DNA from: Candidatus Alkanophaga volatiphilum
GTDB taxonomy: Archaea; Halobacteriota; Syntropharchaeia; Alkanophagales; B39-G2
Reading direction: 5' to 3'
Length of the DNA stretch: 38,725 bases
Assembly: GCA_029259545.1 (NCBI GenBank)
Contig: JAPHEE010000011.1
Coordinates: forward strand, 16,039 to 54,763
The notes below the pieces were generated by a model. It saw only the letters and a list, made by a program, of their open reading frames with translations, was not told the DNA's origin and made no database searches. A program made the translations under genes and the position numbers. How positions within the stretch are numbered: the first letter of the stretch is position 1; the number at the start of each line of letters is the position of its first letter. Positions 3,061 to 27,482 of the stretch are shown here, piece after piece.

Positions 3061-3849
3061 TTAAGGTTTTTCTTTCTTCTCCACGAGTTTCGGGTCGAGT
3101 CCGCCTTTGACGTGCATCTCGAAGATCCTGCCCGTTACCTCCCAGAGTTCCTTCGCTTCCCTGTACGGTATGGTGTCCAGCCCGTAAACTATGGACTTTT
3201 TCAGCAGGACATCCTCAGGCAGTGGCTTCCCCACTGAGACCGGCGTGTCCATCGGAACCGCCATCTGGTCCTTCGTGTACACTACCTCACCCCGCTCCTT
3301 ATCGAAGTAGTAGCGGCGGCGGGCGTCGAACATGAGGCCGTTCTCGTCGAGACGAAGAGCGGAGCCGTGCACGGTGATTCCACGAATCGCTGTCCTCGCA
3401 GGGTCGAAAAGTTCCGTTTCCAGCAGCTCCTTGGAGTATTTCTCCAGATCCCGCTCACGTGCCTCCATCAATTCTCTTCCCGAATATGTGATGGTGTCGA
3501 TGCCCCGGTAGCGTACATGATACATCCTGCCTCGGAATATCGGAGTTAAAGGTGAGTGATAGACCGAGTCCGTAAACTGTATGTAACGTATGCGGTCGCC
3601 GTGTCTTGCGCCGTCGGTCGGCGGCACGAGCTCTCTTATCGGGTCTTCCGGCAGCTTCAGCTCGTCCAAGCTCGGATGCAGTGAGCTGTACTTCTCGCCG
3701 GGCGCCCTGTGCCCCAGCAGCCGTACCAGATCTTCGTCAGGGATCTCCCTTAGCTTCTCGAACTTGCTCTTCGGGTCGAGGATGAAGCGCCGCCGCTCCG
3801 CAACACGATCATCTCCTGGGTACAGGTTTGGCGACGGCTTTTCCGTCAT
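3061..3849 (-). CDS. mcrG: Methyl/alkyl-coenzyme M reductase gamma subunit
   Basis: A 262-aa protein, close to the usual McrG length (about 250-265). It has the family landmarks GHRAPGEKYSSLHPSLDEL (about residues 46-64), GARHGDRIRYIQFTDSVY (about 80-97), YSGRELMEARERDLEKYSKE (about 122-141) and LRLDENGLMFDARRRYYFD (about 165-184). The gamma subunit helps to form the F430 pocket of the (alpha-beta-gamma)2 nickel enzyme. It is third in a tight mcrB-mcrA-mcrG operon. The ATG follows the mcrA stop by 4 bp, and the mcrA TGA is embedded in this gene's Shine-Dalgarno GAGGTGA. Classical methanogen operons run mcrB-D-C-G-A, so both the gene order and the absence of mcrC and mcrD differ. Confidence 0.93.
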   Translation of the reverse strand: MTEKPSPNLYPGDDRVAERRRFILDPKSKFEKLREIPDEDLVRLLGHRAPGEKYSSLHPSLDELKLPEDPIRELVPPTDGARHGDRIRYIQFTDSVYHSPLTPIFRGRMYHVRYRGIDTITYSGRELMEARERDLEKYSKELLETELFDPARTAIRGITVHGSALRLDENGLMFDARRRYYFDKERGEVVYTKDQMAVPMDTPVSVGKPLPEDVLLKKSIVYGLDTIPYREAKELWEVTGRIFEMHVKGGLDPKLVEKKEKP

Positions 3850-3853
3850 GGGA

Positions 3854-5518
3854 TCACCTCGCCGGCTTTATCAGGTCGCGCTCGCCCTCCGGCATGAACT
3901 CACGAAGCGCACCCCTCGCAACCTCCGCTCTTATCCTCTTGAAGTCAAAGGGCAGGCTTGAATCCGCAAATGCCCCCTTCACCACCGGGCTCAGAACCCA
4001 AGGGTCGCCACGAGCTGCGTGCGCCGAAAACACGGATGAGGGCTCTATTGCCATTATCAGCGCTGACGTCGAGTCCTGCGGCATGTTCGCACCCCGTAGC
4101 TCTGGCACTAAGCCCTCGTCTGGACGGACCGATGCCGCGTACGCTATGCTTATGTGGTCGACGGAGTCGCCAGAGCCGAAGCCAGCACGCCCCCACGCCT
4201 CCTTGCCGACGAACGCCTGCGTGTAGTGCAGCGCGAGGTGCGCCGCCAGCGAGTGCCCGGTTGCGAGACCGACGCCGACAGCCGCCGTGGACTGAAGCAT
4301 CCCGAAGCGGATGGCGCCGCCCCAATGCGACTCCAGCAGCAGCGGATACCTGTTGTACTGCTCAAGGATGTAGAAGACCGCCTCCTCAGTGACGTCCCTC
4401 ACGACGTCAAACGACGGCTTCGCCTGCGCAAAGCCCCCGTACTTGTCTTTTACATAATCGGCAATGTGCTGGTAGAAGTCGTCGAGGACGCCATCGCTGC
4501 AGAAATAGGCGACCGCCGAGGCGCCGACGCCGCCGATGACATAGTTGTTCACCCATATGGAGATGTAGTAGAAGCCAGCGAGGGCGGAGGCTTCTGCACA
4601 ATAGCGGACAGGATCGTCGGTGAGCGCATCCGTCTGACAAATGTCGCCGATGTAACCGTAGGGCAGCCCGCCGGGCTCGTTGTCCTTTGGTCCCCTGCGG
4701 GGCCACGTCGGCGTCGCCAGCAACACATATTGCATGTGTTTCGCGGTGAGCGAGAAGTCAGCAAGAACGGAGCCGCCGCCGAGCTTGTAAGCGACGATGA
4801 ACGCGAGCGCGCTCTGATTTGCGTTCCAGCGCCTTGTTATCCCACCATCACCTATTCGGACGGCAATCGTCGGGATTCTCGTTACCTGATAAATATGCCT
4901 ACCAATACCCTCCTTCACCTTTTCAGCCCTCTCTTCAGGATACTCACGGTTTAAGTTTATTAGGAACTGCGGATCTATGTGCGCAGCCAGTTCGTCGTCG
5001 CCGGTGAGAATCTTAACAGAGGTATCCTTCACAAGTCCGGGATGAACCTCAGCCATGTGTTCTTGAGCGACTGCGCCGCCACACATCGCATGGTTTGCCA
5101 CCTCTAGATACCTGTTTATCGTCTCAGGCGTCACGGAGACGCCGAACCTGTTCTGGAGGATCATGTGCGCCATGTCGAGCCCTAGGATGGCAGTCCGCCT
5201 TATGTCATCAGCCATCTGTTGTATCGCTGCGTTGTTTATCTGATGGAAGTCATCATACTCGCAGATAACATCCGTTCCTGTGATGTTGAAATTTTCAAGG
5301 AGCCGTTGTCCTAAAGGCACGCCGCCGATCTCATCTTCACGCTCCCGCTGGTAGCCCACAATCCCGCGCTCTGCCGCTAATTTCCTCGAAAACTCTACGA
5401 ACTCCGTCTTACGCTTGGACTGCCGCCAGCCACCCAGATCGTAAAACTTCGTGCGTCTTTTTGTGGCGTCCTCCTCGCCAAAAGCCTTCTTCAACCTCTC
5501 AACCACTTCCCCCCTCAT
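3854..5518 (-). CDS. mcrA: Methyl/alkyl-coenzyme M reductase alpha subunit, divergent
   Basis: A 554-aa protein, the catalytic subunit of the nickel F430 enzyme that forms or cleaves methyl-CoM or alkyl-CoM. Conserved landmarks are NNAAIQQMADDIRRT (95-109, containing the F430-ligand glutamine), TPETINRYLEVANHAM (130-145), TAKHMQYV (His261, the methyl-histidine position), NEPGGLPYGYIGDICQ (280-295), a Tyr326 equivalent to the active-site tyrosine 333, and the C-terminal ARGALREFMPEGERDLI. Positions that differ from methanogen McrA, by my eye alignment to M. marburgensis numbering: Phe330 is Val323, Gln400 is Ile403, and the GFYGYDLQDQCG block is GFGSGDSVDHIS (446-457). In that block Tyr444 becomes Gly, thioglycine-445 aligns with Ser449, and Cys452 becomes Ile. 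A larger pocket for a multicarbon substrate is an inference. The ATG has a GGGGGTGTGA Shine-Dalgarno and lies 1 bp after mcrB. Confidence 0.93.
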   Translation of the reverse strand: MRGEVVERLKKAFGEEDATKRRTKFYDLGGWRQSKRKTEFVEFSRKLAAERGIVGYQREREDEIGGVPLGQRLLENFNITGTDVICEYDDFHQINNAAIQQMADDIRRTAILGLDMAHMILQNRFGVSVTPETINRYLEVANHAMCGGAVAQEHMAEVHPGLVKDTSVKILTGDDELAAHIDPQFLINLNREYPEERAEKVKEGIGRHIYQVTRIPTIAVRIGDGGITRRWNANQSALAFIVAYKLGGGSVLADFSLTAKHMQYVLLATPTWPRRGPKDNEPGGLPYGYIGDICQTDALTDDPVRYCAEASALAGFYYISIWVNNYVIGGVGASAVAYFCSDGVLDDFYQHIADYVKDKYGGFAQAKPSFDVVRDVTEEAVFYILEQYNRYPLLLESHWGGAIRFGMLQSTAAVGVGLATGHSLAAHLALHYTQAFVGKEAWGRAGFGSGDSVDHISIAYAASVRPDEGLVPELRGANMPQDSTSALIMAIEPSSVFSAHAARGDPWVLSPVVKGAFADSSLPFDFKRIRAEVARGALREFMPEGERDLIKPAR

Positions 5519-5519
5519 T

Positions 5520-6848
5520 TCACACCCCCATCTCCGCCGCCGCTAGCGCTATGCTTTCAAGCGGGCGGTGGAACTCCGGCAGCACCTTCCTAATCTTGAA
5601 AATCTTGCCGGAAGTCATCTCCGGCGAATAAATCTGCGTTCCCGCGTCCAAACAGACGGCAGCACACGCACACGGTATTATAAAGCCCTTAGATGCCCTC
5701 GTGACGACGTGTTCGCCCGACATTATACCCGGGGCGCCGCCGCCGTAGGTGGCGTGCGTCAGCCACTCGTAAGTGATGGCGGTGCCGAGCGCCCTGCCGA
5801 AGTCCACCGACGGCAGCCCGGTCTGCATCTCCAGCAAGTCGTTGTAGAAAAGCATGGCAGATGGCGCACTCTGAACCGCCCTCGACGCACCGACGCTTTG
5901 AATAGTTGCTGCGAGTAGCCCGGCGGCGGCATACGCATTCCAGAGGGCGGCATCCTTCGGCGCATAAACCTTAAAGCCCGACGGCAGCTCCTTCTCCACG
6001 AATATCACGCCGTCTTCCAACGCCCTCTTCACCACCGCCTCGACGATGTCCACAAGCGTTCCTCTACCATGCTCCCTCACAAGCTCATAAACCATATTCT
6101 CGCCGTTCAGTCCTTGATACCCAAAACCAAGGAGCTGGAAGCGCTCGTAAGATCCCAAAGCGTTTCCAGATTCAAATGCGGCGGCGTGTTCCAGCGCCGC
6201 AGCTATGGCAACCGCATCAAATGTTCTTTTACCGGCGAGCGCCACTATGGTATTTATCGTTGGGCTCCTGTAGGCGACGCCCATCGTCTCAAGCTTTGTC
6301 GGGAACGCAAGCAACGCAGAAACGGCGCCGCCCGGCGAGACCGTCTGCGGATACCTGCCGAGGAGCGCTGCTTTCAGCATGTCCACACCGTCGAAGATGC
6401 CAAGCCCGAAAATCTTGATGATCGCATATGCGACTGCTGCTGCCGTCACCAGATAGGTCTGCGAGTAGTCAGCCGCCATTTCAACGCGGGCTCTCGGCAG
6501 CTGGACGATGAGAGAAGCGTCAAGAATTTTGACATCGGTATCGTCGTCCTCCTCCACTTTTATCATCTTCTTAACCTCGTCAGCAATCGCCCCTATGTTC
6601 TCGACGAGAGGTAGGTCCAGCTCTCTGCCGAGAATCTTACACTCACAGCCGATCGCCATCGTGCCCCCGACGCTTGCCGCCCTCAAAGAATCCTCAATTT
6701 TTTTCACATCCACGATCGCGGTCCGCTTCAGGCAATAAAGCATTTTCCTAATAGCTACGTTCTTCAGCGGGCTTATCGCACTCAGGGGAACTTTCTCGGC
6801 AAGTAGCTTGCCCCTGTCATCATAGATACTTACCCTGTCCTCTTCCAT
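5520..6848 (-). CDS. mcrB: Methyl/alkyl-coenzyme M reductase beta subunit, divergent
   Basis: A 442-aa protein from the ATG at 6848. The start reads MEEDRVSIYDDRGKLLAEKV, matching the typical McrB start VDIYDDRGKLLE; a TTG four codons upstream (6860) is less likely. Conserved features are PGGAVSALLAFPTK (about 172-185), AMLFYNDLLEMQTGLPSVDF (about 331-350), the YGGGAPGIMSGEHVVTR block (about 368-384) and GTQIYSPEMTSG. The tyrosine equivalent to beta-Tyr367 is kept (Tyr368). The preceding aromatic pair, Phe361-Phe362 in methanogens, is Trp362-Leu363 here, again altering the pocket wall. It is the first gene of the mcrBAG operon. The lipid reductase gene upstream ends 62 bp away on the same strand, so read-through is possible. 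I see no clear A-box in that gap. Confidence 0.93.
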   Translation of the reverse strand: MEEDRVSIYDDRGKLLAEKVPLSAISPLKNVAIRKMLYCLKRTAIVDVKKIEDSLRAASVGGTMAIGCECKILGRELDLPLVENIGAIADEVKKMIKVEEDDDTDVKILDASLIVQLPRARVEMAADYSQTYLVTAAAVAYAIIKIFGLGIFDGVDMLKAALLGRYPQTVSPGGAVSALLAFPTKLETMGVAYRSPTINTIVALAGKRTFDAVAIAAALEHAAAFESGNALGSYERFQLLGFGYQGLNGENMVYELVREHGRGTLVDIVEAVVKRALEDGVIFVEKELPSGFKVYAPKDAALWNAYAAAGLLAATIQSVGASRAVQSAPSAMLFYNDLLEMQTGLPSVDFGRALGTAITYEWLTHATYGGGAPGIMSGEHVVTRASKGFIIPCACAAVCLDAGTQIYSPEMTSGKIFKIRKVLPEFHRPLESIALAAAEMGV

Positions 6849-6910
6849 TGATTTAAACAAATGTTCATTATCTTATTAGCCTTTTTCCTCGAGCGTTTTG
6901 TCCGAGCGAG

Positions 6911-9254: not shown

Positions 9255-10409
9255 ATGGAAGTGGTCGTGGGTGTACCCTTCGGGTACGAGCCGAGCGCCG
9301 AAGTCAGGGAAATCTTGGAAGATTTCAGAGACATGATAAACTTCTGCATAGACTATGCGGTTGAAAACGGGATAACGTCCTACGCAAGGCTCAGGAAGGG
9401 CATCTACGAGGAGTGGAAGAGGAGGTGGGACTACTCGTCGCACTTTTGCCACTCGGCGTGCAAGATAGCTCTGGCGATGCTCAAGAGCTACAGGAAGAAG
9501 AAGCAGGGGAAGCCTGTGGCGAGAAAGCTTTTCATGCAGCTCGACCCCCAGCTCTACAAATTCCACGGAGATCGGATCAGGATTTCCGTCAGACCGAGGC
9601 AGTTCCTGTTCATCGCCCTGAAGTTCGGAGAGTACCAAAAAAGGTTCATAGATGCGTGGAGGGAGGGAAAGCTCAGAACCGGGGAGATAACGATAAACGA
9701 GTCCAAGATCGTTGTCCCGTTCAAGAAAGAAGTGGACTTGCAGAACCCAGATGACTGGATCGCCATAGACATAAACGAGGCGAACGTCACCGCCGCCAGC
9801 TCGAACTCTCTCTTAAGGCTTGAGCACGAGCTTAGAACAGTGCACACGACGTACTTTTGCATCAGGAGGAGAATCCAAAAGCTCGCAAAGCTCAAGCCGA
9901 AGACCGCCGAAAGGCTCATGAAGAAATACTCCGGGAGGGAGAACAGGAAGGCAAGGGATGTCTGCCACAAAATTTCGAGGGCGATCGTCGATTTCGCCAA
10001 GGAGCACGATCTCGGAATCATCGTGGAAAACCTGAAAGGGATAAGGAACAGGATCAGATACAGCAGAAACTTAAACAGGAGGCTGCACTCGTGGAACTTC
10101 AGGAGGCTCCAGTTCTATATAGACAAGGCGAAGCTCGAAGGCTTGCCGGTCGTCTACGTCAACCCTGAAGGGACTTCGAGCCTGTGCCCGATGTGTGGTG
10201 GGAAGCTGAGAAAAGCACCGAATGGGCACAGGCGGGTTGCGTGCAGGTGCGGATACGAGAACGATAGAGACGTGACCGCCTGCCTGAACATGCTCAGGAT
10301 GAGGGGAGTCCCGTTCCCCCTGAAAGCCCTCGAAAGAGGGAAGACTTCCGCTACGCACGCAACGAAAGCTACGAACGTAGCGGAAAGTCAGAACGGCTGT
10401 ATGAGCTAA
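9255..10409 (+). CDS. tnpB: TnpB RNA-guided nuclease of an IS200/IS605-family element, apparently intact
   Basis: A 384-aa protein. The N-terminal OrfB_IS605 helix-turn-helix region (about 1-160) is followed by a RuvC-like domain with all three acidic motifs: Asp172 in IAIDINEANVT, Glu258 in GIIVENLKGIR, and Asp339 in ENDRDVTACLNM. Between motifs II and III a zinc ribbon has Cys311, Cys314, Cys330 and Cys332. TnpB cleaves DNA guided by an RNA made from its own 3' region. The last 25 codons contain a foldable GCTACGAACGTAGC hairpin (about 10365-10382), as expected where the guide-RNA scaffold overlaps the ORF. No TnpA transposase is nearby. The stop codon overlaps the end of the convergent MazG-like gene by 4 bp, so the right end of the element sits at or next to that gene's stop. 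Confidence 0.88.
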   Translation: MEVVVGVPFGYEPSAEVREILEDFRDMINFCIDYAVENGITSYARLRKGIYEEWKRRWDYSSHFCHSACKIALAMLKSYRKKKQGKPVARKLFMQLDPQLYKFHGDRIRISVRPRQFLFIALKFGEYQKRFIDAWREGKLRTGEITINESKIVVPFKKEVDLQNPDDWIAIDINEANVTAASSNSLLRLEHELRTVHTTYFCIRRRIQKLAKLKPKTAERLMKKYSGRENRKARDVCHKISRAIVDFAKEHDLGIIVENLKGIRNRIRYSRNLNRRLHSWNFRRLQFYIDKAKLEGLPVVYVNPEGTSSLCPMCGGKLRKAPNGHRRVACRCGYENDRDVTACLNMLRMRGVPFPLKALERGKTSATHATKATNVAESQNGCMS

Positions 10410-12105: not shown

Positions 12106-13591
12106 AAAAAGTCGCTAAGAAAGCCCCGCTCTTCAGAGCGGGATGAATTAGGGGAGGCGGGAGGAGAGGCTGGTGGTAAGTTTTTACCAAAAGCTTTAAA
12201 TACCTTTTTGCGTGGTAAAACCTCGGTAGTATGTGGTGTACGGTGAAAGCCAGAGTTCCAAGGAAACTGGAAACCCTGCTAAACGAGTTAACGAAGGAAA
12301 GTGCAAGAGTTTGGAATGAGGCAAGAGAGCTTGTACTCTCACAAATAGACTTAGACTGTCTGCTTAGTCTAATGAACAATAAGAAAAGTAGAGAAGCTTA
12401 TACTATTCTCAACACCTTAAAATGGGAAGCTCAAAAGATCATCAAGTCAGACATTCTACACTCTCAAACCGTTCAAGCAATTCAAGACTACTTAACAGCA
12501 TCTATCAAATCCTATTTGAAGAACAAACTCAATGACGACTCTCACAATCTGCCAAAGGAAGTTAAGTGGTTCATTTATCTGGAAGAACCAAGCAATTAAG
12601 TTTGTCGATGGTAAAATCCAGCTATCTTTAGCGAGAGGTAAGGGTAAAATCATTGTTCCTTTAAAGAAAAAGCACAAGAAACAGCTAAGCAGGTTTTTAA
12701 AGAGTTCAACGGAGTAATCCGTTGGGTTGTGATAACGAGAAAGTATGGTTGCTACTGGATGCACATATTCGTCAAAGCTGAAGACGCTAAAGCTAATGTT
12801 GACATAGAGAGGCGGTTATTCATCGATATTGGAGAGATTCATCCATTCGTGGGATGGAATGATGTTGACAACGAGTTCGTATTTTTCAACGGCACATCAG
12901 GAGTCTTAAGCAATTGAGGTTAAAACTCATCGCTAAGAAGCAATCTATGTTATCAAAGAGGCAAAAAGGTTCGGGAAGATGGAGGAGGGTAAAGCAATCC
13001 TTCGACGAGCAAATCTGGAAGCTCGAAAGGAAAATCACTGATTTAGAGTGTAAATACATCAAAGCTTTGCTCGACTATTGCTTAGAGCATAGAATTGGAA
13101 GAGTTGTCATCGGTGATTTAAAAGGAATTAGAGAAAACAACGACAAAGGTAATGGTGTTAATCAGAAAATCCACAACATGTGGAGGTTTAGAAAATTAGT
13201 TGATAGGTTGAAGTATAAGCTCTCCACATACGGGATTAGAGTGGTGGAGGTCAGTGAAGAATTCTCCACCCAACTCTGTCCTGTATGTGGAGAGTCAAAC
13301 AAACCTAACGGTAGAATCTACAAGTGTAAGTGTGGTTTCATTTTCCATAGAGATTTTGTTGGTGCTATCGGAATCGCTCGAAACTTCTACAACTTTGAAC
13401 TAAAAAGGGGTTTTAAGTGGTTAGCTCCTGAGAAAATATGTGTTGAAGTGTTCAAAGTAGATATTGATAAAGCTGAGGTGAAAAGTATCGTGGTCTGTTT
13501 AAGACCACGTAGCTGGAACGGCACGCCCGCCGTAAGGCGTAGCTCGCCCTTCGGGGCGAGAAACCCCGCACTTTAGTGCGGGGAGTGTCAT
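12106..13591 (+). mobile_element. Decayed IS200/IS605-family (TnpB-only) element
   Basis: The left end follows TTTAC (12101-12105) and begins AAAAAGTCGCTAAG, then a hairpin CCCCGCTC..GAGCGGG (about 12123-12143). The right end carries a GC-rich guide-RNA-like region, with hairpins around 13496-13515 and 13545-13562, and a terminal hairpin CCCCGCAC..GTGCGGGG ending in AGTGTCAT at 13591. The insertion site 3' of TTAC fits the IS605 mode. It encodes a single frameshifted tnpB and no tnpA. Exact ends are inferred from the restored reading frame and from similarity to other copies in the window. Confidence 0.8.
12231..13576 (+). pseudogene. tnpB pseudogene with three frameshifts
   Basis: The reading moves through frames beginning at 12231 (N-terminal domain, to about 12575), an overlapping segment around 12580-12700, a segment around 12700-12905 (VVITRKYGCYWMHIFVKAE then RLFIDIGEIHP, the RuvC-I aspartate), and a last long frame from about 12905 to 13576. 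The last frame has RVVIGDLKGIREN (motif II), the zinc ribbon CPVCG..CKCG and HRDFVGAIGIARN (motif III). Catalytic motifs are recognisable but the chain cannot be translated whole. It is AT-richer than its neighbours and only distantly similar to the intact tnpB at 9255. The final codons overlap the guide-RNA-like right end. Confidence 0.8.
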
Positions 13592-15332: not shown

Positions 15333-16558
15333 TCAAAGCCACAATAGATATAAGACGGATGTGATGGATATTGTTACGAATCCCATTACGATGCCACCGA
15401 CCGTATAACATTTATAACCTATGGCGGGTTCTTTCAAGTCCGCAAGCTCCAGCATTGTCCAGAAATACGAGTCATTCGCATGCGACACTAAAAATGTGCC
15501 CGACGCCACGGATAACAGTACGATTTCAGGTGGCAAGCCGAGCTCAGGAAGGGCTGTAGAAATCAAACTCGGAACTACTAGGAAAGTCACGAGCCTCGAA
15601 CCTTGGACGCTCTGTACGGCAACTGCAACCAGAAATGGCACGAGTACAGCCGGTAATTTCGCCTCCATCAGCATTTCTCCTAACTCCTGCCCAACTCCAG
15701 TCATAGCTAACGTGGCACCAAAAGCACCTCCTGCACACACGACCATCAATATGGCACCGCCCCACTCCACCGCCGCTCCTACCCAATTTTTACTACTGTC
15801 ATCGTAAGCGGCAATAAGAGCGAGCAAGACCCCTATTAGCAGCTCCGAGGAAATTCAACGGCGGGGTGCGAAATGTAAGGTTTGAGAAAATAAGAGCTAA
15901 CGGCACGACGATTGGCGGATATACCTTCCACCTATTAACCGTTTTCTTCTTCCCTCCTCTTTTGGAACTGCTCCGAGCCTGCAACGCTTAGCATATAGGT
16001 AGCCGGCAAGCGTGGTGGGAATTGCCACGACGAGCCCCCACAGCACTATATCTCTTCCGACAATTCCCAATTCGGTGGCTGCCAAATAGACGGCGGGCGC
16101 CGGGTAGATGAGCTCGTATGACGCCAGCGTGCCTAGGCATAGTGATGTCGCAGCGACTCCCATCGGGATCTTAAGCTTTGCTGCTACCTCTTTGGCAACT
16201 GACACGAAGATCACGTATGCGGTGATGCAGCACATCAGCGGAACCGCCGCCAAAAACCCCATGAGGTTCAATGCGAGGAGCGGCTTCCTCGTCGTTTTTA
16301 TTATATCCTCAGCAATCACGGGGGTTCCGCCAATGTCCTCCAGAACAGTTCCAATGACGCCGCCGCAGATGATTATTATCGCAAGGTGGCGAATCACCCG
16401 CGCCATGCCGGAGAGCCCCTCAACGGGTTTTGCTGCCAAGATTGCGACGAGCACCGACGTGGCAAGAGCAGCCCGAAGAAGGGATGTACCTTCACCTTTA
16501 CGGTCAGGAGGAAGACGACGGCTAAAGCGATGGCAAAGGCAATTACGGGAGGGAGCAT
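15333..16558 (-). pseudogene. GntP-family (gluconate/H+ symporter-like) transporter, frameshifted
   Basis: The protein would start at the ATG at 16558 (MLPPVIAFAIALAVVFLLTV, then VHPFFGLLL). It shifts frame near 16470 and resumes as RAALATSVLVAILAAKPVEG, with IIICGGVIGTVLEDIGGTPV and LCLGTLASYELIYPAPAVYL. It shifts again near 15960 (KVYPPIVVPLALIFSN) and near 15830, then reads through GGAFGATLAMTGVGQELGEM and VQGSRLVTFLVVPSL to ASGTFLVSHANDSYFWTMLE. Order and spacing match a GntP permease (gluconate or related hydroxyacid uptake) with about 10-12 membrane segments. At least three indels break it. A sequencing error is possible but would need three independent events. Confidence 0.78.
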
Positions 16559-16695
16559 AAATTTTGATTATAGCCCTTCGTCTTAAATCCCTGATGCTCA
16601 GGGACGGCGGGGCAGAGGCGGAAAAGAGTATCGCAGTATCGTACCGCCTCACACCGCAGCACTACACCCGTCTTACTTATGACGGCGGGTGCCGG

Positions 16696-16962
16696 TCATT
16701 CCTCGGTCAAGCCCGCCTCCTTCAGGGCATTTTCCAGCGTCTCCATGCTCGGAGCCACGCCGATTATGCGGATGTCGTTGTCGATCACGACCGCAGGTGT
16801 CGTGTCGATTCCGTACTCCTTAGTCTTTTCGGTGACGCCTTCGTAAATCCGTACCTCTATCTTGTCGCCGTATTTCTGCTTCAGCCTTTCAATCGCCCGT
16901 CTCACAAGCCGCCCTCCGGAGCACGGCGGCAGCGACGTGAAAACCTCCACGAAAAGCCCTAT
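16696..16962 (-). CDS. Thioredoxin-like small protein 2 (single active-site Cys)
   Basis: An 88-aa thioredoxin/glutaredoxin-fold protein paralogous to its upstream neighbour. The pattern EVFTSLPPCSGG corresponds to ETFTAEPPCPGC there, but the second cysteine of the CxxC is glycine (CSGG). Later segments VRIYEGVTEKTKEYGIDTTP, with the cis-proline region TTPAVVID, and RIIGVAPSMETLENALKEAG match the small redox/disulfide family. No ATG, GTG or TTG lies at the homologous start: GGAGGTGG (plus-strand 16968-16975) is followed after 5 nt by ATA at 16962, aligned with the ATG of the paralogue. I use ATA as start; a TTG at 16986 or a GTG at 16950 are alternatives. It is third in the MtrA-HTH operon, 35 bp after the previous stop. 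Confidence 0.65.
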   Translation of the reverse strand: MGLFVEVFTSLPPCSGGRLVRRAIERLKQKYGDKIEVRIYEGVTEKTKEYGIDTTPAVVIDNDIRIIGVAPSMETLENALKEAGLTEE

Positions 16963-16997
16963 CCCAACCACCTCCGTCGTCAGCAACCCACCAACGA

Positions 16998-17258
16998 CTA
17001 CTCAACGCCAGCCTCCCAGAGCGCCCTTTTTAACGTCTCTCTGCTCGGGCAGACGCCCATGATTTTTATCTTCTCGGCGACGACGACCGCCAGGACGACC
17101 GTCAGCCCGTACTTCTCAAATTCCTCGCAAGGTCCGATGTGCTTGATGACCTCCACCTTCTCGCCGTACTCCTGCTTAATTTCGTCCGCAAGCTCAAGAA
17201 GCTTGGTGCAGCCCGGACATGGAGGTTCTGCCGTGAACGTTTCAACTTTCACCTTCAT
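16998..17258 (-). CDS. Thioredoxin-like small protein 1 (CPGC)
   Basis: An 86-aa protein with a thioredoxin fold. KVETFTAEPPCPGCTKLLEL carries the redox motif CPGC (Cys14, Cys17), followed by YGEKVEVIKHIGPCEEFEKYG, a VVLAVVVAEK strand in the cis-proline position and IKIMGVCPSRETLKRAL. Two further cysteines occur (in GPCEE and GVCPS). The Shine-Dalgarno GGAGGTGGGAG precedes the ATG. It lies 11 bp after the MtrA-HTH gene. The operon context suggests thiol/redox handling linked to a corrinoid protein, for example reduction or metal/cofactor delivery; this is inference. Confidence 0.75.
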   Translation of the reverse strand: MKVKVETFTAEPPCPGCTKLLELADEIKQEYGEKVEVIKHIGPCEEFEKYGLTVVLAVVVAEKIKIMGVCPSRETLKRALWEAGVE

Positions 17259-17269
17259 TCTCCCACCTC

Positions 17270-18142
17270 CTACTTCCTCCTCTGCTGAAACTTTAATAGC
17301 GCTACGCCCTCCGGGGTCACGCTCACGAAGTTTTCGTCTCTTTTCACGAGCTTCACGCTCTCCAGAACGCTTAAATGGTAGTTCAAATCCTTGTCGGGGA
17401 GCTTAAGCGTCTCTTTAAGTTCATCAAGCGAGGCGCCGCCGACCTCCCATAGCAGCGTCAGTAGATTCCTTCTTGTTTTGTTGCTCGCCACCTTCAGCAA
17501 AAGCCTGAGGGCGTGCGGTGGAATTTCCGTCCCTGCAGCTTCCAGCCAAGGTTTTGACACCTTCCACGCAATCTTGTGGACGATTGGCGGCTCCGGGTAT
17601 GCTCCGGGGTCGTAGAGCACGTAGCCGTCGAACCTCGTCGGCGTCTCTTGGTAGCAGCAGCGAACCGCCTCCGCAACCTTTCGAGGGTCGGTGCAGCCTA
17701 TCAAGTCAACGACGCTCACCTGCTTCCTGAAACGCTCGACGAGCTCCGGCGGAAGGTTATAAAGGTAGGGCGTCGGCGCCCCCGTCCCGACGATCCGCTT
17801 GTTCTCGTCAACGCCGTTTTCGACGAGCGCCTTCAAAGCCTCCCCCGGCAGGTGACCGGGGGACTCCTCGCCGCAAATCACGATATAGCGGATGTTGGGG
17901 TTTGCGACCACGTTGCACACGATCTTTTCGATGCCGACGTTCTCCGTCTGCAACGTTCCTGCGAGGGCGGCGCCGGCATCCAAGGCGCTCATCACCAGCG
18001 CCTCCACTTCAGGCGGGGTTGCGAGGTCGAAGGTCGCCAGAATGACGACGACAGCCGCCGGCGAGTAATCATTCCCCCTGACGTAACGCCCCTCCTCCGG
18101 CGGGTACTCCGCCGGCGGCTTGACCTTCCTCATCCACTCCAC
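17270..18142 (-). CDS. MtrA-like corrinoid-domain protein fused to a winged-helix DNA-binding domain
   Basis: A 290-aa two-domain protein. Residues about 5-170 match MtrA, the cobamide-binding subunit of the Na+-translocating methyl-H4MPT:CoM methyltransferase: YSPAAVVVILATF, GTLQTENVGIEKIVCNVVAN, PNIRYIVICGEESPGHLPGE and ENGVDENKRIVG. His97 in SPGHLPG corresponds to the KGH histidine that I take to be the cobalt ligand in canonical MtrA. The canonical C-terminal membrane helix is absent. Instead residues about 215-285 form an ArsR-like winged helix (NKTRRNLLTLLWEVGGASLD, LKLPDKDLNYHLSVLESVKL, VTPEGVALLKF). No other mtr gene is in the window. A corrinoid- or methyl-sensing transcription regulator is inferred. 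An A-box (AATTATTTAAATGG, near 18160-18172) implies a nearly leaderless start, so GTG 18142 or ATG 18133 are both possible. Confidence 0.85.
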   Translation of the reverse strand: MEWMRKVKPPAEYPPEEGRYVRGNDYSPAAVVVILATFDLATPPEVEALVMSALDAGAALAGTLQTENVGIEKIVCNVVANPNIRYIVICGEESPGHLPGEALKALVENGVDENKRIVGTGAPTPYLYNLPPELVERFRKQVSVVDLIGCTDPRKVAEAVRCCYQETPTRFDGYVLYDPGAYPEPPIVHKIAWKVSKPWLEAAGTEIPPHALRLLLKVASNKTRRNLLTLLWEVGGASLDELKETLKLPDKDLNYHLSVLESVKLVKRDENFVSVTPEGVALLKFQQRRK

Positions 18143-18159
18143 TGATGCGCTCTGCCATT

Positions 18160-18172
18160 TAAATAATTTTCG
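18160..18172 (-). promoter_or_regulatory. A-box promoter of the MtrA-HTH operon
   Basis: On the minus strand an AT-rich AATTATTTAAAT lies about 20-30 nt upstream of the start codons, the only AT-rich block in a GC-rich gap. Its position fits a short-leader promoter. Confidence 0.5.
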
Positions 18173-18189
18173 AAATGGGGTTCTGGATC

Positions 18190-18258
18190 GGCGTGGGTGC
18201 TGCGGCGTGGGTTCCCGCCGCCCGTCCGCCGCCCACGCCCGCCCACGCCCGCCACGCC
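18190..18258. repeat. GC-rich tandem inverted repeat (GGCGTGGG x2 / CCCACGCC x2-3)
   Basis: Two direct copies of GGCGTGGG (18190-18197, 18204-18211) face two copies of GCCCACGCC (18231-18239, 18241-18249) and a shorter GCCACGCC (18251-18258), all in the divergent gap between the MtrA-HTH operon and the surface-protein gene. It could form alternative hairpins or be a multi-site operator. Confidence 0.6.
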
Positions 18259-18321: not shown

Positions 18322-19800
18322 ATGAGGGGCGGAGCCTTGCTCTGCTTCTTACTTGTGTCCTTCTTTGCATTCGCAGGCGTGGCGTCCGCGGCGACGATCT
18401 ACGTGCCCGACGACTACGCGACGATCCAAGAGGCGGTGGACAACGCTTCCGCTGGAGATACGATAATTGTGAGGGATGGGGTCTACACCGAAAATATAGA
18501 AGTGGACAAGCCGCTGACGCTGATCTCAGAGAACGGCTCCGAGAACTGCATCGTACGAGCGGCGGACACTCACGACCCCGTGTTTTACGTCGCCGCAGAC
18601 CGCGTGAACATCTCAGGATTCACGATCAAAGGCGGTTATAACGGGATTCGCCTCGGCCTTGCGGAAAATTGCTGCATCACGAACAATAACGTCTCGGGGA
18701 ACCGGTGCGGCATCCGCTTGGCGTGTTCGAGCGGCAACGTCGTCCGCGGGAACACCGTCTCGGAGAACGAGCGGGATGGCATCTGCTTGGAAGATTCGTG
18801 CGGCAACGTCGTCAGCGAGAACACCGTCTCGGGGAGCGGCGACGACGGCATCCGCTTGTGGTATTCGAGCGACAACCTCATATACCTCAACAACTTCATA
18901 GACAACGCCGATAACGTCCATTCTGCCTACTCGACGAACGTCTGGAACTCGCCCTCGCCGGTGACGTACACGTACGGCGGCGGACAATACACGAACTACA
19001 TGGGCAACTACTGGAGCGACTACACGGGGGGCGACGCCGACGGCGACGGGATCGGCGACACGCCGTACGCAATTATCGGAGATGCTGATGACAACTACCC
19101 GCTGGTCGAGCCTTTTGAGAGCTATTTTGCGCCGGAGAACCAGCCGCCGGTGGCGAGCTTCACGTGCTCGCCGGAGCATCCGACGGTCGGTCAGATGGTG
19201 ACGTTTGACGCATCCTCTTCTTACGACCCGGACGGCACGATCGTTTCTTACGAGTGGGACTTCGGGGACGGGGCGACCGCCTCCGGGGTGGTGGTGACGC
19301 ACGTGTATTCGGCGGCGGGGAGCTACACGGTGACGCTCACCGTCACGGACGACGCCGGAGCTGCGAACTCGACGAGCGTGCTCATCACGGTGCTGCCGCC
19401 GCCGCCGAGCGTCTCGGTCTCGACCGACAAGTACGAGTACGCCGCCGGCGACACCATGCTCATAAACCTGACGTTGCGGAACCCGGCGGGCGAGCGGCAG
19501 GACGTGCGTTTCCTGTGGCGTTTCGACGTGCCGGACTACGGACTCCAGTTCCCGATAGTCAACGCCCGGCTGCGGCTGCCGCCGAGCTACGAACGGACGT
19601 TCACGCTGCGGTGGCGGCTCCCGGCGTGGCGACTCCCGTTCAACGCATCGTGGTACGTCGCACTCTTCGACGCCGAATCCTCGGAGCTCATAAGCGACGA
19701 CCGGGCGGACTGGAGATACGTCGCAAGGAAAGGGATGGGAATGGTACCCACGCCCGCCGAAGAGGTCATGAAAGAGGTAAAGAGAGTTTATCCTTTTTAA
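18322..19800 (+). CDS. Secreted beta-helix (NosD-like) / PKD surface protein
   Basis: A 492-aa extracellular protein. The signal peptide (about 1-23) has a hydrophobic core and an AGVASA cleavage region. Next comes a periplasmic copper-binding/NosD-type start, YVPDDYATIQEAVDNASAGD, then parallel beta-helix repeats (about 70-195) with recurring N-N-x-V-S-x-N units. A NYWSDYTGGDADGDGIGDTP module (about 225-245) follows, with an Asp-rich calcium-binding look. A PKD domain (about 275-355; ASFTCSPEHPTVGQ, YEWDFGDGATASG, VTDDAGAAN) comes next, and a C-terminal domain (about 365-475) is shared with the secreted protein at 2135-2662. No membrane anchor or sortase-like tail is visible. A cell-surface or adhesion/carbohydrate-related role is likely for such archaeal proteins; the ligand is unknown. 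An A-box AAAATTTAAATG lies just upstream (about 18289-18300). Confidence 0.85.
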   Translation: MRGGALLCFLLVSFFAFAGVASAATIYVPDDYATIQEAVDNASAGDTIIVRDGVYTENIEVDKPLTLISENGSENCIVRAADTHDPVFYVAADRVNISGFTIKGGYNGIRLGLAENCCITNNNVSGNRCGIRLACSSGNVVRGNTVSENERDGICLEDSCGNVVSENTVSGSGDDGIRLWYSSDNLIYLNNFIDNADNVHSAYSTNVWNSPSPVTYTYGGGQYTNYMGNYWSDYTGGDADGDGIGDTPYAIIGDADDNYPLVEPFESYFAPENQPPVASFTCSPEHPTVGQMVTFDASSSYDPDGTIVSYEWDFGDGATASGVVVTHVYSAAGSYTVTLTVTDDAGAANSTSVLITVLPPPPSVSVSTDKYEYAAGDTMLINLTLRNPAGERQDVRFLWRFDVPDYGLQFPIVNARLRLPPSYERTFTLRWRLPAWRLPFNASWYVALFDAESSELISDDRADWRYVARKGMGMVPTPAEEVMKEVKRVYPF

Positions 19801-23555: not shown

Positions 23556-24668
23556 ATGATGCTCGAACGGGTGCGAGAGGTTTTAGACGGTAGGGAGGCG
23601 GTTGCGAGGAGCTGGAAGGAGCAGGGCAAGAAGGTCGTGGGCTGGATATGCCCCTACGTTCCTGAAGAGCTGATACATGCGGCGGGCATGCTGCCGTTCA
23701 GGGTCATGGGCGCCCCTGTGACGATTGTGAAGGGCGACGCCTACCTATACCCGAACATCTGCACTTTCAACAGGGTCGTGCTCGAACTCGCATTAGGCGG
23801 GCGTTACGACTTCCTCGACGGCATCGTCACCGCAAACGTCTGCGACCACATCCGCAGGCTCTACGATGCTTGGCATTTCTTCGTGGAAACCCCGTTCAAA
23901 CTGATATTGAGCCTCCCGCACAAGGTCTCGGAAAACGCCGTCGCCTTCTTCAGGGATGAACTTTCGAGGCTCAAAAGTGATCTTGAAAAGCTCGCCGGCG
24001 TCGAAATTTCCGACGCCGCCTTGAAGAACTCGATAAGAACGTACAACAGAGCAAGGGAGCTGCTCCGCCGAATATACGGGCTGAGGCGTGAGGAAGAGGC
24101 GCCGATCTCCGGCGCCGAGGCGCTGGAGGTGGTCAAAGCCGGGATGTTCCTGCCGAAGGAGGAGTATGTAGCTTTACTGGAGGAGATTTTCGAAAGCCTG
24201 AAACGCCGGGATGAACGCTACGAGGGCAGTGCGAGGGTCATGATCGCCGGCAGCGACCTCGACGACCCCGGATTTGTAAAACTTATAGAGGACTCAGGCG
24301 GCTTGGTCGTGGCTGACGACCTCTGTACTGGCAGCCGCTACTTCTGGGAGGACGTCGACGTCAGCGGCGACCCCTTGGAGGCGCTCGCAAGACGCTACCT
24401 CAGCCCCGTGCTCTGCGCCCGCATGCACCCCTACGAGGCGCACATCGAGCATCTGATAAAAATGGCTGAAGATTTCAACGTCGACGGCATAATATTCGAG
24501 GCTTTGAAGTTCTGCGACATTTACGGCGGCGAGTACCCGCTGCTTCGGGAGTGGCTGAAGGAGAAAGGTTTAGACATCCCGGTCCTTATGCTTGATCGGG
24601 AGTACGTGCTGAGCGGCGTGGAGCAGCTGAAAACCCGAATACAAGCCTTCATAGAAAGTTTGAGCTAG
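23556..24668 (+). CDS. BcrC/HgdB-like subunit of a benzoyl-CoA reductase / 2-hydroxyacyl-CoA dehydratase-type enzyme
   Basis: A 370-aa protein of the 2-hydroxyacyl-CoA dehydratase D-component family. The N-terminal domain has WICPYVPEELIHAAGMLPFR (30-49, Cys32), NICTFNRVVLELALG (67-81, Cys69) and ANVCDHIRRLYDAW (93-106, Cys96), the three cysteines placed as in cluster-binding subunits. The C-terminal Rossmann-like half has SDLDDPGFVKLIEDSGG and the late EALKFCDIYGGEYPLLRE. It is the first gene of a five-gene operon in the order C-B-A-D-ferredoxin, matching bacterial bcrCBAD. The start is the ATG at 23556 with GATGGTG upstream. Substrate is unknown: benzoyl-CoA, a related aromatic acyl-CoA, or a 2-hydroxyacyl-CoA are all possible. 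Confidence 0.85.
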   Translation: MMLERVREVLDGREAVARSWKEQGKKVVGWICPYVPEELIHAAGMLPFRVMGAPVTIVKGDAYLYPNICTFNRVVLELALGGRYDFLDGIVTANVCDHIRRLYDAWHFFVETPFKLILSLPHKVSENAVAFFRDELSRLKSDLEKLAGVEISDAALKNSIRTYNRARELLRRIYGLRREEEAPISGAEALEVVKAGMFLPKEEYVALLEEIFESLKRRDERYEGSARVMIAGSDLDDPGFVKLIEDSGGLVVADDLCTGSRYFWEDVDVSGDPLEALARRYLSPVLCARMHPYEAHIEHLIKMAEDFNVDGIIFEALKFCDIYGGEYPLLREWLKEKGLDIPVLMLDREYVLSGVEQLKTRIQAFIESLS

Positions 24669-24679
24669 GGGGTGATGAG

Positions 24680-25870
24680 TTGGCGGCTGCGATCCCGCAA
24701 ATAGATTCCGTGGTCCAGAAACGCTATATGGAGCTTGTAGCCAATTTCTTCAAAAGCGCATTCGATGCAAGGAACGTCGGGAAGAAGGTCGTCTGGATGG
24801 CGTATTTCCTGCCGTCAGAGCTTTGTTACACTTTAGATGCCGTACCGTTCTACCCTGAGATCTACGGCGGCGTCTGCGCACGAATGGGCATCGTCCTCAA
24901 GTACATAGAGGCTGCTGAGAGCTTCGGCTATCCTCGAGAGCTGTGCTCCGCAACGAAGTCCGCCGCCGGGCTTGCGCTCTCAGGGGAGGCGCCGCCGCCT
25001 GACGCCGTCCTGAGCACGCAGCCGGTATGCGACGGCGGCATGAAGGTTCATGAGTTCGTCGCCGTCCGCTATAAATGCCCACATTTCTTTATCGATATGC
25101 CTTACTCCACCGATGCACGAGCGGTCGAATACTTGAAGGGCGAGCTTGAAGAAGCCCTTAAATTCCTTGCCGAGTCCTTCGGAGCGGAGTTGAGCGAGGA
25201 GCGCTTGAAAGAAGTCATGGAACTTTCGAAGCGTGCCGAGGAGCTGCATCTGGAAGTTAACGAGCTTAGAAGGAAGAAGCCTTCCCCCCTCCTCAGCATA
25301 GAGCTTTTCGGTCAGTACTTCTTCCCGTGCAGCTTCCTCGGTGGTACGCAGGCAGCCGTTGACTTCTATGCGTTCGTCGCGGAGGAGGCGAGGCGCCGCC
25401 TCAGAGAGGGGGACGTGCCTGAGGAGAAATACAGGATTCTATGGTCGCCGCTCGTCCCGCAAAGCTTCCTGAGCATCCTTCAATGGCTTGAGCTCGAGTA
25501 CAAAGCTAAGATCGTCATGGAGATGGTGGGCTACGCCCCGAAGATCGAGATGGATGCGGCGGAGCCGCTGGAAAGTCTTGCGAGGAAGACGCTCGAAGCG
25601 AGGTTCCCGTCTCTTGGGAACGGTCCAGGCGTGTTTAATCTCGATAGATATCGCAAAGTGGTGAAGGATTACGACATCGACGCTGTGATCTACTTTGCGC
25701 ACTGGGGCTGTCGGACGATATGCAGTGCCGTCAAAATGGTTAAGGACATGCTCAGGGAGGAGTTTGACATCCCGATGCTCGTGCTCGATGGCGACATCTT
25801 CGACCCGAGGAACAACCCTGTGGAGCAGGCGCGGGCGAGGGTTGAAGAGTTCTTTGAAATGCTGGAATGA
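24680..25870 (+). CDS. BcrB/HgdA-like subunit of the same complex
   Basis: A 396-aa paralogue of the first gene's family. Cysteines at 49 (SELCYTLDAVPFYPE), 66 (GGVCARMG), 89 (YPRELCSATKSAAG) and 117 (QPVCDGGMKVHE) are placed as in BcrB-type subunits. The C-terminal half ends with DIDAVIYFAHWGCRTICSAV and PMLVLDGDIFDPRN, typical of the catalytic heterodimer. The start codon is TTG (24680) preceded by GGTGAT, 11 bp after the previous stop. Together with the 23556 product it would form the [4Fe-4S] module that receives electrons from the ATP-driven activator. Confidence 0.85.
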   Translation: MAAAIPQIDSVVQKRYMELVANFFKSAFDARNVGKKVVWMAYFLPSELCYTLDAVPFYPEIYGGVCARMGIVLKYIEAAESFGYPRELCSATKSAAGLALSGEAPPPDAVLSTQPVCDGGMKVHEFVAVRYKCPHFFIDMPYSTDARAVEYLKGELEEALKFLAESFGAELSEERLKEVMELSKRAEELHLEVNELRRKKPSPLLSIELFGQYFFPCSFLGGTQAAVDFYAFVAEEARRRLREGDVPEEKYRILWSPLVPQSFLSILQWLELEYKAKIVMEMVGYAPKIEMDAAEPLESLARKTLEARFPSLGNGPGVFNLDRYRKVVKDYDIDAVIYFAHWGCRTICSAVKMVKDMLREEFDIPMLVLDGDIFDPRNNPVEQARARVEEFFEMLE

Positions 25871-25880
25871 GGTGTGTGGG

Positions 25881-26675
25881 ATGATCGTCGCTGGCGTTGA
25901 TATTGGCTCGCTGACGGTCAAAGCCGTCATATTGAGGGACAACGAAGTCGTGGCGACCTCGACGCTCATCACTGGCGACGACGCCGCCACCGCTGCAAAG
26001 ACGGCAATAAATGAAGCGTTGAAAAGCCTAGCTGAGCGGGGTATGAGCGTGACGCTAGACTCCTTAGACCACATCGTGGCGACGGGCGTCGGCAGAAAGG
26101 AGGTCACGTTCGCACACGAGGAAAAGACGGATGTACGTTGCGACGCCGTCGGCGCACGCCACATATTTCCGTCGGTGAGGACCGTCGTGGACATCGGCGC
26201 CGAGAGCTGTAAGGTCATAAGGCTTAGCAAGAAAGGCAGGGTGGAGGATTTCACCGCTAATGACAAATGTGCATCCGGCACAGGAATGTTCCTCGACGTG
26301 CTCGCGAAGGTCATCGGTGTTGGCGTCGAAAAACTCGGCGAGCTCTCGCTGAAAGCCAAAAAACCCGCGAAAATCAGCAGCATGTGCACGGTCTTCGCCG
26401 AGTCTGAAGTTATTTCCTATATCCACAGGAAGGTTCCGATCGAAAACATTATTGCTGGAGTCCACGAGTCCATAGCTAACAGGATATTCGGGATGATGAA
26501 CAGAGTAGGCGTAGAAAAGGACATAGCGCTCGTGGGCGGCGTTGCAAGGAACGTCGGCGTTGTCAAGGCGCTCGAAGCGAAAGTTGGCGAGAGTATTCTG
26601 GTGCCTGAGGGGCCGCAACTCATCGGTGCCCTTGGCGCCGCTTTAATAGCTGCGGAAGCGTGTGGTACTGCATGA
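25881..26675 (+). CDS. BcrA/BadF/HgdC-type ATPase activator subunit 1
   Basis: A 264-aa ASKHA-fold ATPase. VAGVDIGSLTVKAVIL (phosphate 1 loop) opens the chain. VVDIGAESCKVI (about 102-113) is the second phosphate loop. FTANDKCASGTGMFLDVL (Cys130) and ISSMCTVFAESEV (Cys169) carry the cysteines that hold a subunit-bridging [4Fe-4S] cluster in this family. ALVGGVARNVGVV is the adenosine motif. The enzyme uses ATP hydrolysis to push electrons to very low potential. It starts at the ATG at 25881 with GGTGTGTGGG upstream, 10 bp after the B-like gene; upstream codons in frame belong to the other gene's shadow. Confidence 0.9.
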   Translation: MIVAGVDIGSLTVKAVILRDNEVVATSTLITGDDAATAAKTAINEALKSLAERGMSVTLDSLDHIVATGVGRKEVTFAHEEKTDVRCDAVGARHIFPSVRTVVDIGAESCKVIRLSKKGRVEDFTANDKCASGTGMFLDVLAKVIGVGVEKLGELSLKAKKPAKISSMCTVFAESEVISYIHRKVPIENIIAGVHESIANRIFGMMNRVGVEKDIALVGGVARNVGVVKALEAKVGESILVPEGPQLIGALGAALIAAEACGTA

Positions 26676-26693
26676 TGATGGGAGGTGGCGTGC

Positions 26694-27482
26694 GTGGTGC
26701 TCGTCGCCGGCGTTGATATCGGCTCGCTGACCGCAAAAGCGCTGATCTTGGAAGATTCGAAAATACGAGCATATGCCATAATACCAACTGGCGTTGACAG
26801 CGAAGAGACCTCCAAGAAAGTAATGAACATCGCCCTTGAAAAAGCGGAACTCAGGCTCGAAGATATAGAATATGTGGTCTCGACAGGCTACGGGCGTGTC
26901 GTAGTTCCGTTTGCAAACAAGAATATAACGGAGATCTCTTGCCATGCGAAGGGCGCCGTCTTCCTGTTTCCGTCGGTGCGCACGATCCTCGACATGGGCG
27001 GGCAGGATTGTAAGGCTATACGCTGCGACGCCTCCGGAAAGGTGCTGAACTTCGCAATGAACGACAAGTGCGCTGCAGGTACAGGACGCTTCTTCGAAAT
27101 AATGGCAGAAACTATGGAGCTGCCGCTCGAAGAGCTGGGAAGGCTCTCGCTCGAAGCGACAGATGCCGCGAAAATAAGTTCGGCGTGCGTCGTCTTTGCG
27201 AAATCCGAGGTCTTGACGCTACTGCGGAGGGGCGTCGACAAAAAGAACATACTTGCAGGCATAAACGAGGCTGTAGCCCTTAGGGTTTTCGCCCTTTTGA
27301 ACAGAGTAGGCATCGAAAAGGATTTCGCAATCACTGGTGGCATTGCGAAGAACATCGGCGTCGTGCGGAAAGTTGAGGAGAAAGTCGGACTGAAGGCTTT
27401 AATCGCAGAGGAGCCGCAGATCGTCGGCGCCCTTGGCGCTGCGCTCTTTGCAAAAGAGGCGTTAGAGCAGGTTAAAAAGTGA
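26694..27482 (+). CDS. BcrD/BadG/HgdC-type ATPase activator subunit 2
   Basis: A 262-aa paralogue of the preceding protein: VLVAGVDIGSLTAKALIL, LDMGGQDCKAIRC, NFAMNDKCAAGTGRFFEIMA (Cys126), ISSACVVFAKSEV (Cys165) and FAITGGIAKNIGVV. Having two different activator subunits, rather than one homodimer, is the mark of BCR-type complexes (BcrAD) and distinguishes this operon from simple dehydratase activators. The GTG at 26694 is preferred because GGAGGTG (26681-26687) is 6 nt upstream; a GTG at 26685 overlaps that site. The gap to the previous gene is 18 bp. Confidence 0.9.
   Translation: MVLVAGVDIGSLTAKALILEDSKIRAYAIIPTGVDSEETSKKVMNIALEKAELRLEDIEYVVSTGYGRVVVPFANKNITEISCHAKGAVFLFPSVRTILDMGGQDCKAIRCDASGKVLNFAMNDKCAAGTGRFFEIMAETMELPLEELGRLSLEATDAAKISSACVVFAKSEVLTLLRRGVDKKNILAGINEAVALRVFALLNRVGIEKDFAITGGIAKNIGVVRKVEEKVGLKALIAEEPQIVGALGAALFAKEALEQVKK

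Follow-up and report, generated by a model that had tools for sequence, protein, structure and literature searches.

A soluble MtrA-type corrinoid protein fused to an ArsR-type winged helix in Candidatus Alkanophaga volatiphilum, and its kinship with archaeal arsenic gene clusters

The window, a stretch of 38,725 nucleotides from contig JAPHEE010000011.1 of Candidatus Alkanophaga volatiphilum, carries a row of tightly spaced genes on its minus strand. The first of these encodes an MtrA-type corrinoid domain joined to a winged helix, and it is followed by two thioredoxin-like genes and by the pieces of a gene for a GntP-type permease. The features of the locus, with the basis of each, are as follows.

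17270 to 18142, minus strand: fusion gene, soluble MtrA-type corrinoid domain with a C-terminal ArsR-type winged helix (ORF list, Pfam, NCBIfam, alignment, model, Foldseek)
17624 to 18124, minus strand: MtrA corrinoid domain, residues 7-173 (PF04208, 5.8e-45; NF002126; 5laa/5l8x)
17852 to 17854, minus strand: His97 codon; the residue corresponds to His84, which binds cobalt (alignment to 5laa; conservation)
17276 to 17518, minus strand: winged-helix DNA-binding domain, residues 209-289, without cysteine (HTH_20, secondary structure, ArsR/SmtB structures)
18143 to 18190, minus strand: upstream stretch with a TATA-like AT-rich run and the inverted repeat CCATTT-N12-AAATGG, a putative promoter/operator picked out by eye and not above chance
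16998 to 17258, minus strand: thioredoxin-like protein containing PPCPGC, its gene following the fusion gene after 11 bases (PF13192, 2.3e-8)
16696 to 16986, minus strand: second thioredoxin-like protein, with PPCSGG (PF13192, 1.6e-6; MJ0307 family match)
15333 to 16652, minus strand: GntP-type permease in pieces lying in different frames (PF02447 at 7.9e-14 and 2.7e-24 on two ORFs; ArsQ and GntP models; three-frame reading)

Counted from GTG, the product of the fusion gene has 290 amino acids; alignment with relatives beginning MLKVK suggests that the true start may be the ATG at 18133. Residues 7-173 match PF04208 in Pfam with 153.5 bits against a curated cut-off of 25, and among the NCBIfam models the MtrA subfamily model NF002126 is exceeded (191.9 bits, cut-off 161) while the Mtr-complex equivalog TIGR01111 is not reached (142.2 bits, cut-off 249.15). 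A sequence search of the PDB returned MtrA structures at 2.7e-40, with 5laa and 5l8x nearest. In the C-terminal part, the Pfam model HTH_20 covers residues 220-267 (2.5e-8, 34.2 bits against a cut-off of 27), whereas the cut-off of the NCBIfam metalloregulator model NF033788 (HTH_metalloreg) is missed, with 30.5 bits against 55. The nearest solved structure to this part by sequence is 1y0u, a putative arsenical repressor (ArsR-type) of Archaeoglobus, at 5e-4. An AlphaFold model of the fusion, made from 28 relatives, has a mean pLDDT of 88.2 and a weak linker at residues 198-206. It matches 5l8x and 5laa with Foldseek E-values down to 6.5e-19 and target TM scores of 0.92-0.95, and separately matches the ArsR/SmtB proteins 4ooi, 4k2e, 1y0u and 3f6o with E-values from 2.9e-4 to 6e-4. 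Modelled alone, the winged helix reaches a pLDDT of 73.6 and, among the matches listed, Z-scores of 12 to 13 against QsrR, RosR, CzrA and similar proteins; the fold so predicted is a common one. The original prediction had described the gene as an MtrA corrinoid domain fused to a winged helix and had made the C-terminal match to winged-helix profiles one of its touchstones. That match lies above its cut-off, and with both folds recovered in the model the domain reading is confirmed.

The MtrA domain belongs to a clade of soluble, arsenic-associated MtrA proteins, here named class A. In a tree of 50 rows, class A is one clade of 30 rows that includes the window protein (support 100/99) and lies outside both canonical MtrA (100/100) and a group of MtrA-thymidylate-synthase-like proteins. 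A class A profile (A1) finds members in 18 of the 392 genomes of the window's own phylum, of which 16 are full-length or nearly so and two are fragments (G044 and G339). These 16 score at least 239 bits, against at most 158 for canonical MtrA; one genome with a 205-bit match (G362) was kept apart from the class A count. The same profile also places class A in the phylum to which the Nitrososphaeria MAG belongs (7 of 398 genomes) and in that of the Lokiarchaeota MAG (5 of 227). Plasmid records gave four distant matches only, three annotated DUF4346 and one unannotated. In the window's own order (f2), most genomes have an ordinary anchored MtrA. Residues specific to class A are Y13, E16, Q65 in place of K, L127 in place of I, and Q165-E166.

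The proposal that the winged helix had replaced a membrane anchor does not hold, since a hydrophobic C-terminal helix is absent from all 30 full-length class A members, with or without the extra domain, and present in 16 of 16 anchored MtrA. The maximum 19-residue hydropathy of the window protein is 0.57, against 1.88-3.03 in the latter. A winged helix occurs on five of the 30 full-length members, namely the window protein and its counterparts in four other genomes (L028-L030 and L037); as an add-on in so small a part of the clade, it indicates that regulation is not the basic function of class A. These five and L031, which has no winged helix, form one group (support 93/81), and the tree may reflect either a single origin of the fusion followed by loss or more than one gain. 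The winged helices of L028-L030 and L037 fall under the Pfam cut-off (HTH_34 at 0.028 to 0.18, or no match), and the alignment passes through them without large gaps. Half-size ArsP-type permeases lie 3' of the fusion gene in two of these loci, L030 (4650-5710, two in tandem directly after it) and L028 (8879-9418). Two class A members from the phylum of the Lokiarchaeota MAG carry instead an N-terminal two-cluster ferredoxin domain (L057:6383-7270 and L060:6124-7137); this fits a reducible, catalytic corrinoid, as would be expected if Co(I) were needed.

His84 is described as the lower cobalt ligand in the MtrA structure 5laa, with Glu54 connecting it to a meander of the consensus GAIPF-Y/F-x-EN (PMC4915002). 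The aligned positions of the window protein hold His97, Glu67 and an altered meander, GAPTPYLYN, so the earlier statement that the cobamide-site histidine is retained was correct and extends to its glutamate partner. His97 is shared by all 30 class A rows and all 16 canonical rows, and members from family f16 have Ala or Pro in place of Glu67. Because the window protein keeps both residues, it likely binds a cobamide. Cysteines 90 and 163 were considered as arsenic ligands and rejected: both are invariant in an alignment of 10 rows, but extension to 28 rows breaks the conservation of C90 and shows threonine in place of C163 in two sequences, and a cysteine in the C163 column is also found in half of canonical MtrA.

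The gene neighbourhood of class A was surveyed at 33 loci for ACR3, ArsP, ArsC and ArsR within 6 kb. With HMMs built partly from the counted loci, at least one of these markers was found at 22 of the 33 loci, compared with 0 of 16 canonical mtrA loci, and two or more kinds at 18. ACR3 or ArsP accompanies 19 of the 33 and none of the 16 (Fisher p 8e-5, uncorrected for kinship). The association is drawn from several lineages (family f16, order f2, the genome G055, Nitrososphaeria and Bathyarchaeota), in which the gene orders differ and the genes overlap or are tightly spaced on one strand. Clusters L028-L034 and L039-L047 hold varying sets of ArsR, ArsP-type permease, ACR3, thioredoxin and DUF169; those of family f16 add an ArsC-type arsenate reductase, and the order ArsP-ACR3-ArsC-MtrA is found in one family. 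ACR3 exceeds its curated cut-off of 282.8 in L039 (447 bits) and L028 (362 bits), and the ArsC of L039 is clear (5.5e-36) yet below its cut-off. The ArsP-type proteins match, below cut-off, organometal and Cu/Zn efflux models (SaoE, SO_0444) rather than arsenic-specific ones. Since these permeases resemble organometal exporters, the metal may be other than arsenic.

All four markers are absent within 6 kb at 11 of the 33 loci (the window, L006, L033, L037, L038, L048, L051, L053, L058, L059 and L060), which shows that class A also occurs outside arsenic clusters. Some of these loci are at contig ends and others have long flanks, for example L048, L053 and L059; at L037, itself a winged-helix fusion, no marker occurs in the remaining 930 bases downstream or in the upstream flank. 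Of 30 class A genomes, 15 have an ArsM that exceeds its cut-off; in G002 and G394 it is encoded on the contig of the class A gene, some 3 kb away. The class A clusters show no conspicuous methyltransferase of the MtrH or MtaA kind as a partner, and DUF169 is a possible one. Genes for DUF169 lie near class A mtrA at L004:4195-4911, L028:12252-13010, L032:17148-17897 and L033:12103-12852, directly upstream in the last two.

In the window, the fusion gene and the thioredoxin-like gene that follows it are probably in the same operon, and this thioredoxin is 74% identical to one (L002:37-297) that adjoins a class A mtrA and an ArsR gene. The broken frames of the GntP-type permease may be due to pseudogene decay or assembly error. 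Neither ACR3, ArsP, ArsC nor a separate ArsR was found within 6 kb of the fusion gene; with no exporter or reductase of these kinds in the operon, its link to arsenic consists of kinship, one thioredoxin and the ArsR-type domain itself. A repeat search of the upstream DNA did not single out CCATTT-N12-AAATGG, and as operator candidates both this repeat and one imperfect GC-rich repeat were rejected, neither being above chance. A promoter scan upstream of the fusion found none with a model of the bacterial type. In the sister genome G001, the contig begins at the equivalent of window position 19757, beyond the fusion gene.

The genome to which the window belongs is 88% complete and was searched for the Mtr subunits MtrA and MtrH. 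No MtrH, no second MtrA in its remaining contigs and no ACR3 were found in it, and three other contigs carry matches to PF03773 (ArsP-type) permeases. The observation that no mtr operon is nearby is borne out. Subunit A of an Mtr complex is rejected as the identity of the window protein, given the missing anchor, the failure to find MtrH or another MtrA in this genome and the missed TIGR01111 cut-off. An mcr/acr operon (gamma, alpha and beta) lies in the window at 3061-6860 on the minus strand. McrA-type genes number three in the window genome and four in G055, a genome of the same class; Ca. Alkanophaga is described as having three Acrs, one fewer than Ca. Syntrophoarchaeum (PMC10322722). The counts thus make an alkane oxidiser of the Alkanophaga type the probable host.

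Taken together, these data lead us to favor, with a probability of roughly 45%, the reading that the fusion is a soluble MtrA-type corrinoid methyl carrier which serves in the detoxification of metalloids (arsenic or organometals), has acquired an ArsR-type winged helix and also regulates its own operon. This reading is based on the usual neighbours of the clade, which are arsenic exporters and a reductase, on the family of the domain, which is that of corrinoid methyl carriers, and on the composition of the winged helix. A cysteine site for As(III) is a feature of the ArsR family. Residues 196-290 of the window protein contain no cysteine, which makes an ArsR-type thiolate site impossible there, and any signal would have to enter through the MtrA domain.

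According to the preferred reading, the MtrA domain would bind a cobamide whose lower ligand is His97 and would carry out methyl exchange with arsenic or with a metal or metalloid that bears methyl groups, either taking the group off a trivalent arsenical or putting it onto one. The thioredoxin-like partners would keep cobalt and substrate reduced, and the permeases of the operon would export the product. In the fused form, a change in the state or occupancy of cobalt would alter binding of the winged helix to the promoter of its own operon, so that enzyme and regulator would be one molecule, as in the ArsR-ArsM fusion. We infer cobamide binding, methyl transfer and its direction, and DNA binding by the fusion, and we likewise infer that the window operon has the same substrate as the operons of its relatives. 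ArsRM of Brevundimonas, in which ArsR is fused to the SAM enzyme ArsM, is reported to methylate As(III) and to bind its own promoter, so such fusions can work (PMC10190100). A chemical precedent is the corrinoid-based demethylation of methyl-selenium compounds described in PMC10418091. Where ArsM is also encoded, demethylation is a better fit than methylation, and its presence in half of the class A genomes weakens a methylation-only reading. A broader proposal is more doubtful: that class A MtrA serves as corrinoid enzyme in an oxygen-independent methyl-transfer pathway for arsenic or organometals, for example as the missing anaerobic methylarsenical demethylase, and that the window fusion is a one-molecule enzyme and repressor in which the state of cobalt directly sets transcription of the detoxification operon.

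Several other explanations share part of this evidence. The lack of cysteine in the winged helix, and of a separate ArsR in the operon, would also suit a purely chemical sensor, whose corrinoid reacts with an arsenical or other electrophile and switches the winged helix with no turnover. We consider this unlikely, because 25 of 30 full-length members have no winged helix and many of them are in similar clusters, so that the domain works without DNA binding, and because the ferredoxin-fused members suggest redox turnover. An ordinary methyl carrier for methyl-pterin or the Wood-Ljungdahl branch, brought next to arsenic genes by shared mobile segments, is distinctly unlikely. Such a role is assigned by hypothesis to MtrA/MtrH of non-methanogens (PMC9635834, PMC11291895), and it agrees with the 11 marker-free loci and with TnpB genes in the window; however, the association recurs in several unrelated lineages, where gene order varies and neighbouring genes on one strand overlap or leave little space between them, and the window genome has no MtrH.

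It is improbable that the winged helix is a module for dimerisation or partner docking only, with a fusion that does not bind DNA. Separate ArsR genes in the L028 and L030 clusters and the divergence of the other four fused winged helices below the Pfam cut-off speak for such a module, but the window domain exceeds the HTH_20 cut-off with a predicted helix-turn-helix and wing, and its gene has no other ArsR within 6 kb. Very improbable, finally, is the kind of factor proposed in the original prediction, which would gauge C1 flux by the methylation of its corrinoid and control C1 or methane/alkane genes. Both domains are real and the mcr/acr operon is in the same window, but over 10 kb separates the mcr genes from the fusion gene, which stands first in an operon that also encodes thioredoxins and a permease, and the genome has no detected Mtr complex (MtrA, MtrH). 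The neighbours of the clade are arsenic or metalloid genes and not C1 genes, and no link to C1 flux is seen. What stands of that proposal is the coupling itself: a cobamide fold with His97 and Glu67 kept, beside a DNA-binding fold, makes a corrinoid-coupled regulator plausible, whereas its tie to C1 flux finds no support.

Compared with known systems, the MtrA domain shares its fold and about 38-39% identity with MtrA of the N5-methyl-tetrahydromethanopterin:coenzyme M methyltransferase (5l8x, 5laa, 8q3v), including the equivalents of His84 and Glu54. It differs from MtrA of that complex in having no membrane helix and no MtrH or second MtrA in its genome, and in its class-specific residues, its C-terminal winged helix and the metalloid neighbours of its clade. 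Cytoplasmic MtrA homologues of methanogens are likewise soluble corrinoid domains with no anchor, but they are described as 60-97% identical to anchored MtrA (PMC4915002), whereas class A is a separate, long-branched clade. ArsRM of Brevundimonas, which belongs to an arsenic context, also combines a winged helix with a domain for methyl transfer in a single chain (PMC10190100), a likeness that here concerns architecture only; in our case the partner is a corrinoid domain instead of the SAM enzyme ArsM and the winged helix is C-terminal. ArsR/SmtB repressors (1y0u, CzrA, CadC, HlyU) share the winged-helix fold, unlike which the window domain has no cysteine and is fused to MtrA. MtrAH fusions are another kind of MtrA-domain fusion (PMC11291895). 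A further kind, outside class A, joins the MtrA domain to a thymidylate-synthase-like domain (L046:8906-10261 and L054:9353-10627); these and the related L055 and L056 were set aside on the basis of the tree, and arsenic markers occur at 0 of the 4 loci of this group.

No report of MtrA in arsenic operons was found in the literature searched; the parts belong to known families, and their combination appears new. Demethylation of dimethylarsenate is assigned to methylotrophic methanogens in PMC10579292, where its mechanism is called unclear. Found repeatedly in ArsR-ArsP-ACR3-ArsC clusters of archaea, both mcr-bearing and not, the soluble MtrA-type corrinoid protein offers a concrete candidate for an oxygen-free dimethylarsenic demethylase, and the fused form, if the reading is true, would couple a cobalt centre directly to transcription.

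Two further groups of genes were observed in the window, both on the plus strand. Two TnpB-type genes, a sign of mobile elements, lie near the locus at 9255-10409 and 12914-13576. At 23556-27482, two HGD-D genes (2-hydroxyglutaryl-CoA dehydratase type, near double-cubane reductases) stand in a row with two BadF-type activase genes.
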